Assembly (NCBI GenBank): GCA_026692905.1
Contig: JAPLNL010000045.1
Span: 1 to 64,000 of the forward strand
Direction: 5' to 3'
DNA: 64,000 bases
Source: Planctomycetota bacterium
GTDB lineage: Bacteria; Planctomycetota; Planctomycetia; Pirellulales; Pirellulaceae
Shown: positions 38,330-61,670 of the stretch, one piece after another
How the letters are laid out: every line of letters begins with the position of its first letter
Position numbering within the stretch: position 1 is the first letter of the stretch
Made by a program: the position numbers and the translations under genes
The notes under the pieces: generated by a model
Told to the model about the DNA's origin: nothing
The model's input: only the letters and a program-made list of their open reading frames with translations
Database searches by the model: none

Positions 38330-39055
38330 ATGGGTTATACCCAAATCATGCAAACCACTACCAACCTAACCAACGACCCAACCTTCGCTTGTTCTGACGT
38401 GTGGGGAAATTGGTGGTCCGTTCCTGCGATCCGCTCGAAGGTTCTTGATGCCTTCGAACGCATCGTGATCTTGGGCTTATTTGGTAGCTTTTTTCAAGCA
38501 TTGGTCGTTTCCATCGGAACCGCCCTGCGATTCGGGCAATCCATCGTGATTTCTGACTTCATGGTCTTGCTCACGGAAACCATGATGGTTGTGATGGTGT
38601 TGTTTCGACGCAGAACCCTAAACATCTCGCTACGACCAACCGACTGGGCTCTCGCCTTTTCGGCAACATGCCTGTCGTTGCTCGCACGTCCGTTCCCAGG
38701 GGATACACACGTACTAAGCCAGTTTGCGGTCTTTCTTACCATCCTCGGCGTATCGATTCAGCTCATTGCCAAATTCACGTTGGGCCGACGTTTTGGGGTG
38801 GTCGCTGCCAACCGAGGTCTGTGCATGTCCGGTCCCTATCGAATCGTCCGACACCCGATCTACATGGGATACATTGTCCTCCATACGGGATTCCTTTTGC
38901 TCAACCCACACATTTGGAACTTTTGCGTGTTCGCAGTTCTTTACTCCGTCCAGATCCCTCGTATCTTGGCCGAAGAACGCCTTCTCAGCCAAGATCCCGA
39001 GTACCAGAACTACATGCAAAAGGTTCGGTCTCGACTTCTCCCTGGCTTGTTTTAA
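38330..39055 (+). CDS. ICMT/PEMT-type membrane methyltransferase
   Basis: 241 residues, with about five or six hydrophobic segments. The C-terminal catalytic module has the family's AdoMet-binding motif GPYRIVRHPIYMGYI (about residue 167) and RILAEERLLSQDPEYQNYM, as in isoprenylcysteine methyltransferases and related lipid methylases. Substrate unknown. ATG 38330 or ATG 38348 may be the start. Its last codons lie within an 84-base tandem duplication. A distant relative lies at 55982-56794. Divergent from metK, which supplies its methyl donor. Confidence 0.75.
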   Translation: MGYTQIMQTTTNLTNDPTFACSDVWGNWWSVPAIRSKVLDAFERIVILGLFGSFFQALVVSIGTALRFGQSIVISDFMVLLTETMMVVMVLFRRRTLNISLRPTDWALAFSATCLSLLARPFPGDTHVLSQFAVFLTILGVSIQLIAKFTLGRRFGVVAANRGLCMSGPYRIVRHPIYMGYIVLHTGFLLLNPHIWNFCVFAVLYSVQIPRILAEERLLSQDPEYQNYMQKVRSRLLPGLF

Positions 39056-53841: not shown

Positions 53842-53855
53842 GGAGTTGTTTGAAG

Positions 53856-53927
53856 CTACCCCGCTAGGACTCGAACCTAGAATAAAGGAACCAAAATCCC
53901 TTGTGTTGCCAATTACACCACGGAGCA
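53856..53927 (-). tRNA. tRNA-Gln (anticodon TTG)
   Basis: 72 bases on the minus strand without encoded CCA. Acceptor arm TGCTCCG pairs with CGGGGTA, with G:U at two positions; D-arm contains GTAATTGGC; the anticodon loop TTTTGGT gives TTG at the centre; the T-arm has GGTTCGAGTCC, giving the TpsiC loop. It reads CAA and by wobble CAG. A promoter-like pair and a terminator flank it, so it is an independent unit. Confidence 0.93.
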
Positions 53928-54344: not shown

Positions 54345-55616
54345 TCACTTGCTGTTGGGCGTCAGTTCGATATCCAACCACACCAAATGGTGATCCGATG
54401 CATCCGCAAGTTTTGGATCACTTCCCTTGAGTTTCTCGCCCTTGGGCCAAAAAACGCCGCCGTTGATGACTTTGCAATTGGAAGAGGGCAATACAAAGTC
54501 GATACGTAAGTTGCCGGGTTCGTTATCGTTGAAATCGCCCGTGTCGTTGGCGGGGTTTCCTTTGTGCTTCACATTGGCCTTTCCCTGAGCCTGGGCCGCT
54601 TCCACGGCGCCTTGGCTTTCCGGCACGAAATCGGAGAGGACTCGCTTTGAACTGAGCAAATCGATGATTCCCTGCGAGATGCCACTGCCATCTTTGGGGT
54701 CGGAATTCAAATCTCCCAAAATAACAAACCGAGTATCCGCGGCTAACGGCCCGGATTTGCCTTTGTCGTCTACCAGATAGCTACCGTCGCTTGTGCCGCT
54801 GACGTAGTCCTTGATGAGTCGGATTTCGTCATGGTTGCGACATCCGTTGCGGTCCTCTGGGCCATCGAAAACGGGTGGCGTTGGGTGAGAAGCAATCACA
54901 TGGAGCGTTGTGCCGTTGATCTCAATCGGAATATCCCAATGCGATTTGGAACTCAGTCGCAGTTGGTTCCAAACCTCATCCGAGTGAAAGAACTTTTCCT
55001 GGCCAGTTGCTTTATCCACGAGCTTCGGTCGCTTAGCGCCGGGCATTTGGCTCCACCGGAACATCTGAAAGCTTCTCACTTCTTTTTCTGCGATCGGGAA
55101 TCGGCTAAAGACCGCCATACCGTATTGCCCGGGAAAGGCTCCGTACCCCCAACTGTCGTCGCTGTCCGCTGTTCGACCATTCAAATTGAGGTCCAAACCG
55201 GAAGGCACCCCTGTGTTGACTGGGGCCGTGAAAAGATTATTCAATGTGCTCGGCCCCGTCTTCCACGCGTTCGTCTGAGGCTTGAGGAAGTACATATCGC
55301 GCAACCATTTCGCTGCTTCGCCATCGGAGTAATCCACTTCGTTGGCAAGTAACACATCAGGCGCAACCAATTGAACAATCGTGGCGATTCGTTTAGCTTG
55401 CTCGTCTCCTGTCTTGAGATCACGTACAAGTTGTCCTTGTTCTTTCCGATTCAACGCGACATTGAATGTGGCGATTCGAATGCAACCTTTGGCTGGCGGC
55501 GGCGGAGCGATATCTGATTTTTCGTCGGCGATGAGGTTCGGGAGTGGCGAGCAAGTAGCAATGAGAGCAAGTGCCCAGTTGGCTGGCTTGCTCGAAAATC
55601 GAGGAGGCTGTTGCAT
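54345..55616 (-). CDS. Exported endonuclease/exonuclease/phosphatase-family protein
   Basis: 423 residues. Signal peptide at about 1-31 (NWALALIATCSPLPNLIA). The EEP fold shows IRIATFNVALNRKE near the mature start, APDVLLANEVDY with the metal-binding Glu (about residue 90), HVIASHPTPP, RFVILGDLNSDP (about 300) and the terminal ASDHHLVWLDIEL, i.e. all the catalytic stations. These proteins hydrolyse phosphodiesters or phosphomonoesters (DNA, lipid or nucleotide); an exported member suggests scavenging of extracellular phosphate. Start ATG 55616. Upstream, 55617-55981 has only a palindromic element. Confidence 0.88.
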   Translation of the reverse strand: MQQPPRFSSKPANWALALIATCSPLPNLIADEKSDIAPPPPAKGCIRIATFNVALNRKEQGQLVRDLKTGDEQAKRIATIVQLVAPDVLLANEVDYSDGEAAKWLRDMYFLKPQTNAWKTGPSTLNNLFTAPVNTGVPSGLDLNLNGRTADSDDSWGYGAFPGQYGMAVFSRFPIAEKEVRSFQMFRWSQMPGAKRPKLVDKATGQEKFFHSDEVWNQLRLSSKSHWDIPIEINGTTLHVIASHPTPPVFDGPEDRNGCRNHDEIRLIKDYVSGTSDGSYLVDDKGKSGPLAADTRFVILGDLNSDPKDGSGISQGIIDLLSSKRVLSDFVPESQGAVEAAQAQGKANVKHKGNPANDTGDFNDNEPGNLRIDFVLPSSNCKVINGGVFWPKGEKLKGSDPKLADASDHHLVWLDIELTPNSK

Positions 55617-55981: not shown

Positions 55982-56794
55982 CTACTTCATCAACCGCAGC
56001 GGGCCAATGCCGATAATGGGCAGTCCTGTGACTCGTTTCGCATACTCTCGGTAGTCTTCACCGACGAAGCGGATCATTCGTTTATCCTTGAAGTAACTAC
56101 CGGCGTAGATGTACGCTGTCCAAATGGCCGTTAATACCGCGTGGTCCAGTGTCATCGTTGGTGTAAACCAAATCAGGCCCAAGAAGCTCATGTAAATCGG
56201 GTGACGCATCCATCGGTAAGCGCCAGTCTCCAAGAACTCACGTTTAGGCGGCTTTTGCTGAATCAACCAGTACCACCATTGCGTCAGCCCGGTCTGATAA
56301 AGCATGCCTGTGATGTAAAGGCTATAAAACAACGCAACCCAGGAACCGTAAAAACCACACAGAATCGCAAACTCGGTGATGCCGGTTGCATGCCACAAGG
56401 TTGTCGAACACACTTCCCAATTGTGAAACATGAAAAGCAAAGTCAAGCAAGTCACGGAGCAGTGCAAGCAGCCGAGAAGGCCTGCTGGCATCCAGACTTT
56501 GATCCGTTTCTGAATTGGCGGTGCTAACAGCAGACTGTGCGGAATCGCAAATCCAATCGAAAGCAAAACGTCGATCCAAAACCAATGCGAACTCGAATGC
56601 GTACCACCGTACTTCAGAAACGTAAACAGTTGCACAACGGTCCACAGGAACAATACTTGACTTAAAACGCCAAAGGCGATACCGCAAAGGCGGCCTGCTA
56701 TCTTAGTGTATGTCCGTTCTGTCCCTAACACCGCTAACCCAAGACTAGCCGCCACTGTCGAGGGCTTGCTTGGAACACTTGTACTCGAGTGCAT
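55982..56794 (-). CDS. NnrU/ICMT-like membrane methyltransferase (PKS cluster)
   Basis: 270 residues with about six membrane segments. Its start ATG overlaps the stop of the methyltransferase gene upstream by one base (TGATG), so translation is coupled. The C-terminal catalytic motif is GAYRWMRHPIYMSFLGLIW (about residue 200) followed by DYREYAKRVTG, as in NnrU, ICMT and methanethiol S-methyltransferase-type enzymes. In bacterial type III PKS loci, ICMT-like enzymes such as BpsB methylate alkylpyrone products; here the same role is inferred, with the membrane as its place of action. Last gene of the leftward operon. Confidence 0.82.
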   Translation of the reverse strand: MHSSTSVPSKPSTVAASLGLAVLGTERTYTKIAGRLCGIAFGVLSQVLFLWTVVQLFTFLKYGGTHSSSHWFWIDVLLSIGFAIPHSLLLAPPIQKRIKVWMPAGLLGCLHCSVTCLTLLFMFHNWEVCSTTLWHATGITEFAILCGFYGSWVALFYSLYITGMLYQTGLTQWWYWLIQQKPPKREFLETGAYRWMRHPIYMSFLGLIWFTPTMTLDHAVLTAIWTAYIYAGSYFKDKRMIRFVGEDYREYAKRVTGLPIIGIGPLRLMK

Positions 56795-57630
56795 CAGTCC
56801 TTTTTCTCCGCAATGAAATATCCATATTCCATGGCGCCGGAATCGTAGGCGTTTAAGATGGCGTCAAAATGGTCTAAAAACAAAACGTGATTGCTGCCAA
56901 GAATTTTGGCTAGATATCGCACACCGGTCTTTTCAACGCGTTTGCGACATATCTCCCAAGTCTTTTTCACTTGTTTGGTCCAAATCCCTTTGGCTGTTAC
57001 GGTTAGTCCAGCTTCTTCGAACCAGCCAACGTAGTCGGATTGGCTTCCCAGCGAAGGACAAAACATGCCTTCGCATACACGTAAGGCTTGTTGCGAGTGA
57101 GCATCGCTCATTGGCAACGCGCCAGAGAGCCATGCCAGCAATGCAAATCGCCCCCCTGGCTTGATCCACGATGCTGCCTTTTTGAAGAACGCCGGCTTAT
57201 CGAAAAGATGCTCAGTGCATTCGATACTCCAGACAACGTCCGCCGAGCCTTCGGGAAACTGAGTAGCCTCTGCGTCTTCGCATCGGAATTGCGGTCGAGG
57301 TTGCAGTCCCTTGATGGCTGCACTTGCGGTGGCCCATTGGCGTTGGACCGGACTGAGCGTCACCCCAGTTACTTGGCATTGCAGATTCTTCGCGAGCCAA
57401 ATGCTGGAGCCACCCATCCCGCAACCGATGTCGTACACAACCGATTTGGGCTGAATTTTAGCTAGTCCCGCCAAAGTGGCCGTCAATTGAATTTGCGCTG
57501 CAGCCGGTGATTCGTCTGCCAACCAGTAGCCATGATGGATGTGCGGCCCCCAAAGCAATCGATAAAAAAGCGTACTCACGTCATAGTGATTCTTGATGAC
57601 GGACTTCTTGATGTCTGGACACTCGATCAT
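56794..57630 (-). CDS. Tocopherol-methyltransferase-like enzyme (PKS cluster)
   Basis: 278 residues from ATG 57630; the frame extends to 57765, but the start at 57630 overlaps the YceI stop by one base (TAATG) and gives the proper N-terminus. Features of the gamma-tocopherol/sterol C-methyltransferase type: NHYDVSTLFYRLLWGPHIHHGYW, AdoMet motif DIGCGMGGSSIWLA (about residue 65), VTLSPVQRQWA and VWSIECTEHLFDK. Members methylate aromatic rings or sterol-like substrates. A soluble enzyme; in this cluster it may C-methylate a phenolic polyketide. Second gene of the leftward operon. Confidence 0.85.
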   Translation of the reverse strand: MIECPDIKKSVIKNHYDVSTLFYRLLWGPHIHHGYWLADESPAAAQIQLTATLAGLAKIQPKSVVYDIGCGMGGSSIWLAKNLQCQVTGVTLSPVQRQWATASAAIKGLQPRPQFRCEDAEATQFPEGSADVVWSIECTEHLFDKPAFFKKAASWIKPGGRFALLAWLSGALPMSDAHSQQALRVCEGMFCPSLGSQSDYVGWFEEAGLTVTAKGIWTKQVKKTWEICRKRVEKTGVRYLAKILGSNHVLFLDHFDAILNAYDSGAMEYGYFIAEKKD

Positions 57631-58295
57631 TACTCCGGTACCACCCAAATATCGCCATAGATAACAAGTTCGTCGGCGACCCCAACGGCGCCCAGCATTT
57701 TCGAATAAGGTTTGATTCCGTAATTGGATTGCAAAATCTTGAACGAGCCACGGTAGTGGTGCCATCCATCCTTGACTTCGAGATCACAAGGTATCTCGAT
57801 TCGTCGCGTTTTTTCATGCAGAGTAAAATCGCCTACGAGTAGATATTCTGGAAGCTGACGTTTGCTCGTCGTGTTCTTAGGCCGAATGGTAACGTGTTCG
57901 AACTTGGCTGTCGTGTACTTCTTTACGTTTAGAATTTCAGCACCCAGCATGTTCTCGTTTACCTTTTTGCGGGTTGCCTCATCCACGGCGTTTTCGAGTG
58001 CCAAATACTTTTTCGCTTGAGGAGTGTCCGCATTGAACGATTGCATATCGAAAGTGAGTTTGCCCTCGCGGCCCTCTTTTTGAAACAACTCGCCGCTCGC
58101 TAGTTTGCCCTCGACCGCATGTTGGTGACCGACGACGCCAGACTTGTCAACAAAAATGTAGACGCGGCTGAAGTCGGTATTTACCTGGCCGGACGGCGGT
58201 CGCTCTTGAGCGCCGCAAACGCTTGCTATCGCGATAAAGCAAGCAAAGATTTGGGCTGTCAGCCGACCCAGTGAAAACTGATCAACCTTTCGCAT
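57630..58295 (-). CDS. YceI-like periplasmic lipid-binding protein (PKS cluster)
   Basis: 221 residues from ATG 58295, which begins a signal peptide ending in CGA (LTAQIFACFIAIASVCGA); the open frame reaches 58331. The mature protein is a lipocalin-like beta-barrel: FSRVYIFVDKSGVVGHQHAVEG, LTFDMQSFNADTP, HVTIRPKNTT, LLVGDFTLHEKTRRIEIP, ILQSNYGIKPYSKMLGAVGV. YceI family members bind isoprenoid quinones or other long lipids. In a locus that makes a polyketide, it is likely to carry the lipid product or precursor in the periplasm. Its stop overlaps the next start. Confidence 0.87.
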   Translation of the reverse strand: MRKVDQFSLGRLTAQIFACFIAIASVCGAQERPPSGQVNTDFSRVYIFVDKSGVVGHQHAVEGKLASGELFQKEGREGKLTFDMQSFNADTPQAKKYLALENAVDEATRKKVNENMLGAEILNVKKYTTAKFEHVTIRPKNTTSKRQLPEYLLVGDFTLHEKTRRIEIPCDLEVKDGWHHYRGSFKILQSNYGIKPYSKMLGAVGVADELVIYGDIWVVPE

Positions 58296-58565
58296 CGTCG
58301 TAACTCCGTTTCCCGTGTACAATCCATCCATAGTTTCAATGGCTACGCGACCATCCTAACACGTACCACGACCTTAGGACTAGTCGAGCTCTCCAATTTC
58401 GAATCTCAGTGGAGGAACTACCTGCGAGATCGGTGCAGTTCGATGACAATTGTGACAGGCGATACCCACGATTAAAAACCTGCAAGATATCTCGATTCGT
58501 ACTCGTGTTTCGGCCGCAACACGCTCATGTGGTGCCTTGTTCTCATTGTGTTTTGCGGAGAAATC

Positions 58566-59285
58566 ATGAAGTCAAGAGTGCTAGTTCCTGAGCTCATGGA
58601 CGATCCTGCTATCGATCCTGTCGAACATCGACGGGCACTCAACGGTCTACGCCGTATCAACAAGCTGTGCCAAACTGGCTCGCAATTAGCCAAAGAAATC
58701 CTCGCAATTGCCAAAAAGCATCAGCGTACTGAGATCAACATTTTGGACATAGGTTGCGGAAGTGGTGACGTTGCGTTCGACGTAGCTCGGCGACTTACCA
58801 GCCACCTACAATGCCATGTCACCGGTTGGGACATCAGTCAGACGGCTGTGGACTGCGCCGCAGCCGACTGGACAAACCAAAAAAATCGCATGCCTGCGGA
58901 GAAGCGATCCAACATCGAAATTCACTTCCAGCAAGCCGACGTCTTTCAGCCGAGTGAATCCAAATTCGATATCGTCTATTGTTGCCTCTTTTTGCATCAC
59001 TTCACGGAGCAGCAGGCCGTCCAAGTTCTGATGCGAATGCGGGAAATAGCTTCCCTTGGCGTTGTAGTAGATGACTTGATTCGGTCTCGAGCAGGTTACG
59101 CGCTGGCTCAGATCGGATGTCAGTTGTTGTCGCGTTCGCCAGTGGTCCATTTTGACGGACCACAATCGGTCCGTGCTGCCTTTACGGAAACCGAGGCCAA
59201 GAAATTGGCTACAGAGGCCGGTATGAATTCTTGCACGACTCGCAAGCATTGGCCAGAGCGATATCTATTGAGATGGGACGCCTAG
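58566..59285 (+). CDS. UbiE-like AdoMet methyltransferase (PKS cluster)
   Basis: 239 residues from ATG 58566, preceded by GGAG at the right spacing (frame open to 58527). Motifs: MDDPAIDPVEHRRALNGLRRIN at the start (a shared opening of type III PKS-linked methyltransferases), ILDIGCGSGDVAFDV (about residue 58), VTGWDISQTAV, and FDIVYCCLFLHHF near the middle. AdoMet fold class I. First gene of the rightward operon, whose stop is one base from the flavoprotein start. Likely O- or C-methylates an alkylphenol; substrate not known. Confidence 0.87.
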   Translation: MKSRVLVPELMDDPAIDPVEHRRALNGLRRINKLCQTGSQLAKEILAIAKKHQRTEINILDIGCGSGDVAFDVARRLTSHLQCHVTGWDISQTAVDCAAADWTNQKNRMPAEKRSNIEIHFQQADVFQPSESKFDIVYCCLFLHHFTEQQAVQVLMRMREIASLGVVVDDLIRSRAGYALAQIGCQLLSRSPVVHFDGPQSVRAAFTETEAKKLATEAGMNSCTTRKHWPERYLLRWDA

Positions 59286-59286
59286 C

Positions 59287-60465
59287 ATGATCGCGGTCAA
59301 ACCATCACGCTCGTTGTCCTTGATGGACATGGAAGCCATTGATTGGGACGTCGTCATACTCGGCGCAGGAGTTGCTGGTGCCGCTGCTGCGATTCTGGCT
59401 GCCCAGCACGGGCTTCAAACGCTGTTGGTGGAGTCGAAAAGTTTTCCTCGCGAGAAAGTATGTGGTGGCTGCCTAAATCTTCGCTCGCAAGCTTCGCTCG
59501 ACCGACTTGGCGTCTCAAGTGAAATCAAGTCGGCCGGTGCCATTTCCATTCAATCGATGCGATTGCAGATCCTGGCGACCAATGTGCAATGGAAAGTGCC
59601 CACCATGGTGAGCGTTCGACGTTCGACGTTGGATACGATCCTGGTCGACCGCGCTATCGCAACCGGATCGCATTTCATCGATCGCACCACAGGCCATGTC
59701 TTGCCGACTTCTCTTGAGTCAAACAACGGACTGGGAACGGTTAGACTACAACAGGATGGCAACTCGGTCCTCGTTTCCACGAAGTGTATCCTAGTCGCGA
59801 GCGGATTGACCCGATCTTCGATTCGACAAGATGATCAATGGCCAGCCAAAATAGAAAGCGATTCTAGGATCGGCGTTCAGTGCTTGATCCCGGAACACCA
59901 AGCTGAATGCTTTGCGGATGGGCAGTTGCATATGCTGGTAGGAAAACGCGGGTACGTCGGCATCTGCAAGACCGACGGCGACTTGCTAGACATCGCCGCA
60001 GCTATCGATCCGGCTTGCATTCAGTCTATGGGTGGCATCCCGGAAGTGATCCGCACGATTTTATCTGAGTGCGGTCACAATGGAATCGAACTCCCCAGCA
60101 AAGAGCATTGGATGGCGACTCCTAGCTTAACGCGCTGTTCCAAGCGCGTTAGCGATCGAAACACGTTTTTGATCGGCGATGCGATAGGTTACGTAGAGCC
60201 ATTTACCGGCGAGGGAATGTCATGGGCCTTGGCCAGCGCCGAAGCCGTGATGCCGATGGTTCTCGAAATCGCATCGAGCGGTTGGCAGGAGGGCATGGGC
60301 GATCGCTGGAACGATTGGGCTCTGCGCGAAAGAATACACAAACAACGAACATGCCGGTGGATTGCGAGCCAGATCAGATGGCCGCGCGGTGCGGCTTGGG
60401 TTTTACGGGCTTGCAATTGGCTTCCGCCTTTACGCGCCTCAATCATACGAAGGACAAGTCAATGA
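59287..60465 (+). CDS. Geranylgeranyl-reductase-like FAD oxidoreductase (PKS cluster)
   Basis: 392 residues. The Rossmann FAD-binding motif VVILGAGVAGAAAA (glycines 26, 28, 31) and VESKSFPREKVCGGCLN are the markers of the geranylgeranyl reductase/flavin hydroxylase family, and GDAIGYVEPFTGEGMSWAL near residue 296 is the second FAD site. Such enzymes hydroxylate aromatic rings or reduce isoprenoid chains. In the phenolic lipid locus srsABC of Streptomyces, a flavin hydroxylase follows the type III PKS, so ring hydroxylation here is a reasonable inference. It ends with TGA overlapping the PKS start (ATGA). Confidence 0.87.
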   Translation: MIAVKPSRSLSLMDMEAIDWDVVILGAGVAGAAAAILAAQHGLQTLLVESKSFPREKVCGGCLNLRSQASLDRLGVSSEIKSAGAISIQSMRLQILATNVQWKVPTMVSVRRSTLDTILVDRAIATGSHFIDRTTGHVLPTSLESNNGLGTVRLQQDGNSVLVSTKCILVASGLTRSSIRQDDQWPAKIESDSRIGVQCLIPEHQAECFADGQLHMLVGKRGYVGICKTDGDLLDIAAAIDPACIQSMGGIPEVIRTILSECGHNGIELPSKEHWMATPSLTRCSKRVSDRNTFLIGDAIGYVEPFTGEGMSWALASAEAVMPMVLEIASSGWQEGMGDRWNDWALRERIHKQRTCRWIASQIRWPRGAAWVLRACNWLPPLRASIIRRTSQ

Positions 60466-61670
60466 GTTTATTAAGCCTGGAAACACCGATGGTCCTCAAA
60501 GCGACCCATACCAAGATTCTTGGTTTGGGAACTGCAACACCAGAACATTCGATCGAGCAAGCGGACGCAGCCACCGTAGCCCAGCAGTTGAATCTGTCGG
60601 AGCGATGGAACAACGCACTCCCGGCTTTGTATCGCAAATCGGGTGTGCAGCGCCGCGGAAGCGTTTTGTTGGGGCCAGAAGGTCTTCCGGGTATCGATCG
60701 TCAGACATTTTACAAACCCGCTTCGGAAGCCCAACCGTATGGTCCTACGACATCGGATCGCATGAAAGTGTTTTCGGAATACGCGGGCCCAATGCTTCAG
60801 CGAGCCTGTTCCATAGCGATTGAAAATTCTGGAATCGCAACGAGCAGTATCACGCATTTGGTCAGCGTTTCCTGCACAGGTTTCTTTGCGCCGGGTGTCG
60901 ATATCGCATTGATTGAAGCGCTGGGTCTGGACTCCAATATCCAGCGTACCCATGTCGGCTTTATGGGGTGCCACGGAGCCCTCAATGGCATTCGCGTCGC
61001 CAAAGCGATCGTCGATGCAACTCCCACCGCAGTGGTTCTGCTCGGTGCGGTAGAGTTGTGTAGCCTCCATCAGCAGTACACGGACGATGCACAGCAATTG
61101 GTTGCCAACTCATTGTTTGCCGACGGAGCAGCGGGACTTGTCGTAGGGGCCAACAACCAAAACGGAAACGGCCAAAACGCGAGTTACCAAACCAACGACT
61201 CACCATCGAAGTCGCTTTTGCAATGGACCGTGGTTTCCACGCTATCGAAATGGATCCCAAAAACAACTGACTTGATGAGTTGGACCATTGGCGACTATGG
61301 TTTTCGGATGACCTTGGATCCTCAAGTGCCTAGCATTGTTGAAGCAAACTTGGAGAGCGAGCTCAAGAGTTGGTTGGATGGCCAATCGCTCAGCATTGCG
61401 GACATCGATGCTTGGGCGATCCATCCCGGCGGCCCACGCATCATTCAAGCGGCCGGGGTAGCACTGGGCTTACCCGCAAAAGCTCTTGAGGGTTCGCAGT
61501 CGGTCCTGGCCAATTATGGAAACATGTCTTCTCCGACGGTTTTGTTTATCCTGGAAGAATTGTCGCGTCAGCAACCGGACGCAAATTACTGTATTTTGTT
61601 GGCTTTTGGACCTGGATTGTGCATCGAAGCGGTCTTGCTGAGGTCGGCAGGCGTTAACCATATCGTGTGA
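60462..61670 (+). CDS. Type III polyketide synthase
   Basis: 402 residues from ATG 60462 in the ATGA overlap with the flavoprotein stop, with GAAGGA upstream; the frame is open to 60222, but the longer version is not a PKS. The catalytic triad of the chalcone synthase superfamily is complete: Cys170 in GFMGCHGALNGIRVAKA, His321 in AIHPGGP and Asn354 in NYGNMSS. Other marks are SCTGFFAPGVD and LFADGAAGLVVG. These enzymes condense malonyl-CoA units onto an acyl-CoA starter without ACP. By genomic company the starter may be a long-chain acyl-CoA, giving alkylresorcinol or alkylpyrone type lipids, but the starter and number of extensions cannot be read. Confidence 0.95.
   Translation: MSLLSLETPMVLKATHTKILGLGTATPEHSIEQADAATVAQQLNLSERWNNALPALYRKSGVQRRGSVLLGPEGLPGIDRQTFYKPASEAQPYGPTTSDRMKVFSEYAGPMLQRACSIAIENSGIATSSITHLVSVSCTGFFAPGVDIALIEALGLDSNIQRTHVGFMGCHGALNGIRVAKAIVDATPTAVVLLGAVELCSLHQQYTDDAQQLVANSLFADGAAGLVVGANNQNGNGQNASYQTNDSPSKSLLQWTVVSTLSKWIPKTTDLMSWTIGDYGFRMTLDPQVPSIVEANLESELKSWLDGQSLSIADIDAWAIHPGGPRIIQAAGVALGLPAKALEGSQSVLANYGNMSSPTVLFILEELSRQQPDANYCILLAFGPGLCIEAVLLRSAGVNHIV

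Follow-up and report, generated by a model that had tools for sequence, protein, structure and literature searches.

The subject of this work is a six-gene locus built around a type III polyketide synthase (PKS), located at 55982-61670 in a stretch of 64,000 nucleotides (hereafter the window) from a planctomycete of the family Pirellulaceae (GCA_026692905.1, contig JAPLNL010000045.1, positions 1 to 64,000 of the forward strand). The six genes form two divergent arms of three. The left arm, on the minus strand, begins with a gene for a YceI-family lipocalin, a putative periplasmic lipid carrier (57630-58295). It continues with a soluble S-adenosylmethionine (SAM) methyltransferase of the CMAS/Methyltransf_11 type, 278 amino acids long and here called MT2 (56794-57630), and ends with an integral membrane methyltransferase of 270 amino acids (55982-56794) that resembles MddA and isoprenylcysteine carboxyl methyltransferase (ICMT) and may methylate a phenolic lipid in the membrane. 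The right arm, on the plus strand, encodes a HidA-like SAM methyltransferase of 239 amino acids (58566-59285), a HidB-like oxidoreductase of 392 amino acids dependent on flavin adenine dinucleotide (FAD) (59287-60465), and the type III PKS itself, a putative alkylresorcinol synthase of 402 amino acids (60462-61670). Within each arm the genes are packed tightly: the sequence reads TAATG between YceI and MT2, TGATG between MT2 and the ICMT-like gene, a one-base gap (TAG-C-ATG) between the methyltransferase and FAD genes, and ATGA between the FAD and PKS genes. The arms are separated by a divergent spacer of 270 bases (58296-58565), a length that assumes the YceI start at 58295; an alternative in-frame start lies at 58331. 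An earlier note on this DNA had described the six open reading frames (ORFs), the two divergent arms, the four tight junctions, and the spacer, all of which were verified in the sequence. A scan of the spacer for sigma-70-type consensus promoters gave no match.

What do the right-arm genes encode? In the PKS, both chalcone/stilbene synthase domains, N and C, score above cut-off (85 and 90.5 bits against 27), as does FAD_binding_3 in the oxidoreductase, which bears out the earlier labels of flavoprotein and type III PKS. In an alignment with PKS18, Cys170 falls on the cysteine of the FMGC motif, and His321 and Asn354 are also in line (residues counted by hand), which gives the catalytic triad Cys-His-Asn. 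The oxidoreductase also matches the geranylgeranyl-reductase superfamily at 106 bits, below the cut-off of 158.8. The methyltransferase had been called UbiE-like, a label that survives in a loose sense: a UbiE-type match scores 25.1 bits (cut-off, 20.1), and the best match is instead the hypothetical protein family NF004851, at 190 bits against a cut-off of 243. A single type III PKS was found in the genome assembly (5,955,990 bases in 148 contigs), and relatives of this PKS are present across the phylum.

With its methyltransferase, FAD oxidoreductase, and type III PKS in that order on one strand (58566-61670, plus), the right arm is an already published planctomycete operon that resembles cyanobacterial hidABC. 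The same three classes in the same order were found for 58 of 96 planctomycete PKS genes (Milke 2024, PMC10896814), where the synthases were placed with HidC and the operon was described as kin to the cyanobacterial cluster. In picocyanobacteria, the hidABC genes for hierridin have the same order and classes; HidA is described as an O-methyltransferase, whereas the relative in G. maris, acting with its oxidoreductase, adds one methyl group, probably on carbon (PMC10896814). Four of six planctomycete PKSs expressed in Corynebacterium glutamicum made alkylresorcinols (PMC10896814), and by analogy with these homologues the product of 60462-61670 is a putative alkylresorcinol synthase. The published operon was presented as a three-gene cluster, against six genes here, and a 2025 review still describes a three-gene cluster of unclear function (PMC12078418). 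Genes adjoining planctomycete PKSs were said to be conserved in close relatives only, and a lipid/isoprenoid-binding protein and two methyltransferases were noted beside the PKS of ‘Saltatorellus ferox’ (PMC10896814). The main text of that paper contains none of the terms YceI, isoprenylcysteine, ICMT, and tocopherol, and a cyanobacterial survey (PMC8086630) does not mention isoprenylcysteine, lipid-binding, or MMPL, YceI not being among the terms sought. In the open-licence papers searched, none was found that joins YceI, polyketide synthase, and planctomycetes, or polyisoprenoid-binding and type III polyketide; MMPL, type III polyketide synthase, and alkylresorcinol came together in one, on a mycobacterial pan-genome. 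One right-arm operon lies on a plasmid (PALBO1 of Paludisphaera borealis, NZ_CP019083.1), with 4-base overlaps at both junctions; YceI and a second methyltransferase are absent among the annotated neighbors shown.

To turn to the left arm, the YceI label is well founded (PF04264, 52.4 bits against a cut-off of 23.7). The protein gives a profile match to BcnA (5ixh, E 4.7e-5), and its N terminus looks by eye like a signal peptide. In many solved YceI proteins the bound ligand is ubiquinone-8 or a related isoprenoid or lipid, and one member helps protect against lipid peroxyl radicals (PMC9113575). In the BcnA/LcoA system described in the same paper, a periplasmic YceI lipocalin is believed to bind a quinone or phenolic compound. 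The partner there is a cytochrome b561, whereas here the neighbors are biosynthetic enzymes, and the functional link between the two systems is one of analogy. MT2 scores above cut-off for both Methyltransf_11 and CMAS, and it gives a good structural model (predicted local distance difference test score [pLDDT], 90) and resembles the natural-product methyltransferases RebM, AtmM, and MitM. These, together with phosphoethanolamine methyltransferases, are its nearest solved relatives, a likeness that leaves its substrate unfixed. The earlier description of MT2 as tocopherol-methyltransferase-like lacks specific support: no named tocopherol methyltransferase appears among the NCBIfam or PDB matches listed.

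The third left-arm protein is harder to place. It scores 19.3 bits against PF04140 (22.1 bits in a six-frame search), below the cut-off of 24 in either case, and 89.8 bits against the NCBIfam MddA family, below the cut-off of 270. The ICMT-like label that it had been given is a loose one; a profile comparison matched a solved ICMT (5v7p, E 0.0034). Among 22 members of its family, 13 match PF04140 and 13 match NnrU (E up to 1), and an Arg-His-Pro-x-Tyr motif is invariant in 22 of 22. The sequence thus points to membrane methyltransferases of the MddA/ICMT/NnrU type. A Foldseek search with its model (pLDDT, 88) pointed weakly to steroid 5-alpha-reductase (7c83, probability 0.95) and then to ICMT (5v7p, probability 0.47), with TM-scores of 0.2 to 0.3 and no match at E 0.001; the structural assignment is weak. 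Another ICMT-family ORF of the window (38330-39055, plus), outside the locus and about 17 kb off, scores 38.1 bits, above the PF04140 cut-off.

ICMT-type enzymes do occur with type III PKSs elsewhere. SrsB of Streptomyces srsABC (PMC6669644) and BpsB of Bacillus bpsAB (PMC10083409) are named isoprenylcysteine carboxyl methyltransferases; by their example, membrane methylation of a phenolic lipid is the natural guess here too. The srs locus also has a flavin monooxygenase. The earlier note took srsABC and bpsAB as the known loci for comparison, which was incomplete in view of the hidABC-like planctomycete operon (PMC10896814). Those loci have one methyltransferase against three here, their descriptions include no YceI, and two transporter genes lie near one srs-like locus. 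Nor is the window locus a single operon of the srsABC type: the three classes are present, but the ICMT-like gene belongs to the divergent arm, and its product scores under the PF04140 cut-off.

Does the left arm belong with the synthase? Among 199 genomes of the family (cut-offs of E 1e-20 for PKS, 1e-60 for MT2, 1e-30 for the ICMT-like gene, and 1e-60 for the control), 110 encode the PKS. The 48 genomes with MT2 and the 34 with the ICMT-like gene are all PKS positive (48/48 and 34/34); at these cut-offs neither gene turned up in any of the 89 PKS-negative genomes. The control, a flanking gene of the endonuclease/exonuclease/phosphatase family (54345-55616), occurs in 123 genomes, 77 PKS positive and 46 PKS negative. 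Fisher p values for association with the PKS, which ignore shared ancestry, are 1.4e-15 for MT2, 1.5e-10 for the ICMT-like gene, and 0.012 for the control. Counted by genus, MT2 is found in 19 of 68 and the PKS in 37 of 68. In a sample of 392 genomes from the phylum, 68 had the PKS (E 1e-40) and 11 had MT2 (E 1e-45): the organism's own genome, 8 with MT2 at 56 to 59% identity and the PKS less than 3.2 kb away in each, and 2 distant ones (G343 and G462). The last two, candidates for MT2 without an adjoining PKS, are 43% and 37% identical and lack the other locus genes around them; they were rejected as distant homologues.

The association is also physical. Loci centered on MT2 were collected independently of the PKS as the best 80 of 143 relatives, a set that leans towards close relatives. 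In the 41 of these with at least 7.9 kb on either side, the PKS lies within 10 kb of MT2 in 37, FAD in 34, HidA in 33, YceI in 31, and the ICMT-like gene in 31, and 29 have all six (the FAD match being weak in two, L226 and L235). Seen from the 112 PKS-centered loci, MT2 is present at 29, all three left-arm genes at 20, and all six at 18, while the right arm stands alone at 54. MT2 thus accompanies a minority of synthases and is hardly ever found without one, which makes the left arm an add-on. On a quick PKS tree (the window and 107 of the 112 loci, after removal of proteins shorter than 300 amino acids; long-branch warnings), MT2 presence switches 19 times, or no fewer than 12 going by starred branches; the tree labels one genome, G177, as lacking MT2, probably wrongly.

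Gene order is anything but fixed. MT2 loci with the PKS within 10 kb span several orders and three families. The window is divergent; L229 (titled Rhodopirellula baltica BR-MGV) is co-directional; L257 and L261, whose PKSs are 74.9% and 73.6% identical to that of L196 (titled Gimesia sp.), are convergent; and L200 and L225 are interleaved as YceI-HidA-FAD-PKS-MT2-ICMT. MT2 and the PKS stand without HidA, FAD, or the ICMT-like gene in L242, L246, and L248, of which L246 (Stieleria sedimenti) has a weak YceI match. Since such loci exist, one of them in Stieleria, the two-gene operon of Stieleria maiorica may hold MT2 and not a HidA relative. At MT2-centered loci, junctions within -8 to +2 bases were counted in 26 of 31 cases for HidA-FAD, 22 of 29 for FAD-PKS, 15 of 44 for YceI-MT2, and 19 of 43 for MT2-ICMT, with a bias to tight junctions because the in-frame start nearest the preceding stop was taken; whether the arrangement exceeds chance is better judged from the conservation of the set. 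The earlier suggestion that the six enzymes are made coordinately is consistent with the tight junctions at this locus and not with its relatives, where the arms are rearranged or apart; what is conserved is not joint expression of six genes. The answer to the question posed above, and to the check for co-occurrence that the earlier note had proposed, is that among the 199 family genomes MT2 and the ICMT-like gene are confined to those with the PKS, and that they cluster with the synthase repeatedly, in varied orders.

A recent replacement of the right arm was considered, as many relatives in the genus share about 70% identity in MT2 against about 51% in the PKS. It was dropped: G136, G189, G195, and G059 are nearest by PKS and among the nearest by MT2, and a right arm that diverges faster is explanation enough. 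The named relatives closest to the locus include several genomes from metagenomes that carry the label Pirellula. A tRNA-Gln gene (TTG) lies about 2 kb left of the locus (window 53855-53927, minus) and is a possible integration landmark.

Are six genes the whole set? Blind clustering of ORFs of at least 100 amino acids from 81 loci (the 80 above and the window) recovered MT2 in 71, YceI in 57, ICMT in 57, PKS in 53, FAD in 47, and HidA in 45, and brought out a seventh family in 35, the next family being found in 10. These counts are lower bounds, as the clustering misses some genes (e.g., the MT2 of L189); a first setting split families too finely and was not used. The seventh family is an RND protein, Pfam MMPL. 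In 20 cases its gene lies downstream of the ICMT-like one, no more than 200 bases away and in the same orientation, and in some relatives all seven genes lie inside about 8 kb. The culturable Aeoliella straminimaris (L233) is one relative with the full set. The window locus has no RND gene, so the pump need not be linked. A likely orthologue in the same genome (L256, contig C32) is 55% identical to that of L182; it sits away from the locus, and the short ORFs around it, judged by eye, resemble ExbD. Botrimarina colliarenosi Pla108 carries two MT2 copies (L219, L220), one adjoining HidA-FAD-PKS and the other in a YceI-MT2-ICMT-RND module.

Gene content, co-occurrence, recurrent clustering, and family assignments together form the observed basis for our reading: the locus assembles a phenolic lipid of polyketide origin, modifies it, and transports it, the product being most likely a multiply methylated, alkylresorcinol-derived lipid of the envelope. 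We put the probability of this at roughly two in three. The earlier note had likewise seen the six genes as one set for an elaborate phenolic or quinone lipid, possibly membrane-associated; the set does recur and an envelope-directed lipid is the best reading, but the seventh member had been missed. How might such a pathway run? The PKS would condense a long-chain acyl-coenzyme A (acyl-CoA) with three malonyl-CoA to give a 5-alkylresorcinol, as demonstrated for homologues (Milke 2024). The HidA-like methyltransferase and HidB-like flavoenzyme would next act on the ring, through C-methylation and, probably, hydroxylation, the latter a presumptive role for the flavoenzyme. MT2 may add a further methyl group in the cytosol and the ICMT-like enzyme another in the membrane, like SrsB and BpsB. 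The YceI lipocalin would carry the lipid through the periplasm, and in many relatives the linked MMPL/RND pump could move it out of the inner membrane. HidAB and YceI-MT2-ICMT(-RND) would then be separable add-on cassettes for one synthase, both carried by the genome studied here. What each left-arm protein acts on, in which sequence the steps run, what is made, and how it travels are all inferred.

Several observations weigh against this reading, to which the neglect of shared ancestry in the p values must be added. Deletion of the PKS in S. maiorica gave no growth or ampicillin phenotype (PMC10896814). Of the 110 PKS-positive genomes, 62 lack MT2 at E 1e-60, and neither MT2 nor ICMT is near the PKS at 83 of 112 loci; where more than 7 kb of flank is available to either side, this is so for 55 of 71. 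In G136, whose MT2 is 91% identical, neither YceI nor ICMT is matched at the locus, and the genome yields no ICMT-like gene at E 1e-30. G195 retains only a fragment of MT2 with a stop. Three PKS loci (L062, L069, and L075) have MT2 and no HidA, FAD, or ICMT in reach, and at the cut-off used, G019 and G032 have an ICMT-like gene but no MT2. The PKS is out of reach in 4 of the 41 full-flank MT2 loci (L176, L177, L209, and L244), three of which (L176, L177, and L244) correspond to G098, G059, and G150, where it occurs elsewhere in the genome; MT2 and PKS are on separate contigs in G059 and G098. For G177, which has no MT2 match, an assembly gap is the likely reason, as its YceI match runs up to the edge of a contig and the ICMT-like gene is found on a different one. 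Finally, the RND gene is present in only 15 of the 41 full-flank loci. As for the MT2 remnant of G195 (L159, contig C48), it covers residues 140 to 277 with an in-frame TAG, and the PKS locus of that genome has a FAD match and no HidA match.

Could the two arms simply be unrelated operons that adjoin by chance? The clear presence of MT2 in under half of PKS-positive genomes (48/110) would allow it, but the PKS falls within 10 kb of MT2 at 37 of 41 full-flank loci, in different orders and across three families, while three flanking genes of the window, searched for at the 112 PKS loci, matched at none. Co-occurrence and recurrent clustering make chance adjacency highly improbable. A subtler option is that the left arm modifies or carries another lipid, such as a respiratory quinone, and lies near the PKS through shared regulation or a shared envelope role. 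The isoprenoid ligands of solved YceI proteins (PMC9113575), the separation of the arms in several genomes, and the many right-arm-only loci (54/112) all lend it something. However, the 89 PKS-negative genomes also need quinones and yielded neither MT2 nor the ICMT-like gene, and in L062, L069, and L075 MT2 adjoins the PKS without HidA or FAD. We consider this explanation unlikely.

Somewhat better placed, if still doubtful, is the idea of a secreted, hierridin-like allelochemical, diversified by the extra methyltransferases and secreted by the exporter of the relatives. The right arm equals hidABC in order and class, some cyanobacterial hierridin-like clusters have a second methyltransferase (PMC8086630), and relatives repeatedly carry an MMPL/RND exporter. 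An envelope lipid would be the better fit for a periplasmic lipocalin and a membrane methyltransferase, and undecorated alkylresorcinols had no added antimicrobial effect (PMC10896814), a result that concerns those forms and not the finished compound. The envelope-lipid reading can itself be taken further, in a form that we offer tentatively and with no more confidence than the allelochemical: the seven-gene system may make a highly substituted methyl/methoxy alkyl(hydro)quinone shuttled via the periplasm, a polyketide counterpart of ubiquinone or tocopherol serving as redox carrier or envelope antioxidant. In Mycobacterium smegmatis, an alkylresorcinol from a type III PKS becomes a polyketide quinone via O-methylation and oxidation (PMC5916927).

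Overall, the right arm was already known, and the new part is the left arm that tracks the PKS. The gene association is real, recurrent, and rearranged, and it adds two methyltransferases and a lipocalin to the known alkylresorcinol operon, joined in relatives by a pump. The planctomycete alkylresorcinol pathway had been left at three or more steps, its final product and function unsettled (PMC10896814), and the two methyltransferases, periplasmic carrier, and pump are candidates for the missing ones. Because some relatives hold all seven genes so close together, the pathway could be completed in the existing heterologous system. Should the product prove to be an envelope lipid of the quinone type, planctomycetes would possess a way to a redox or antioxidant lipid of the membrane that does not pass through isoprenoids.

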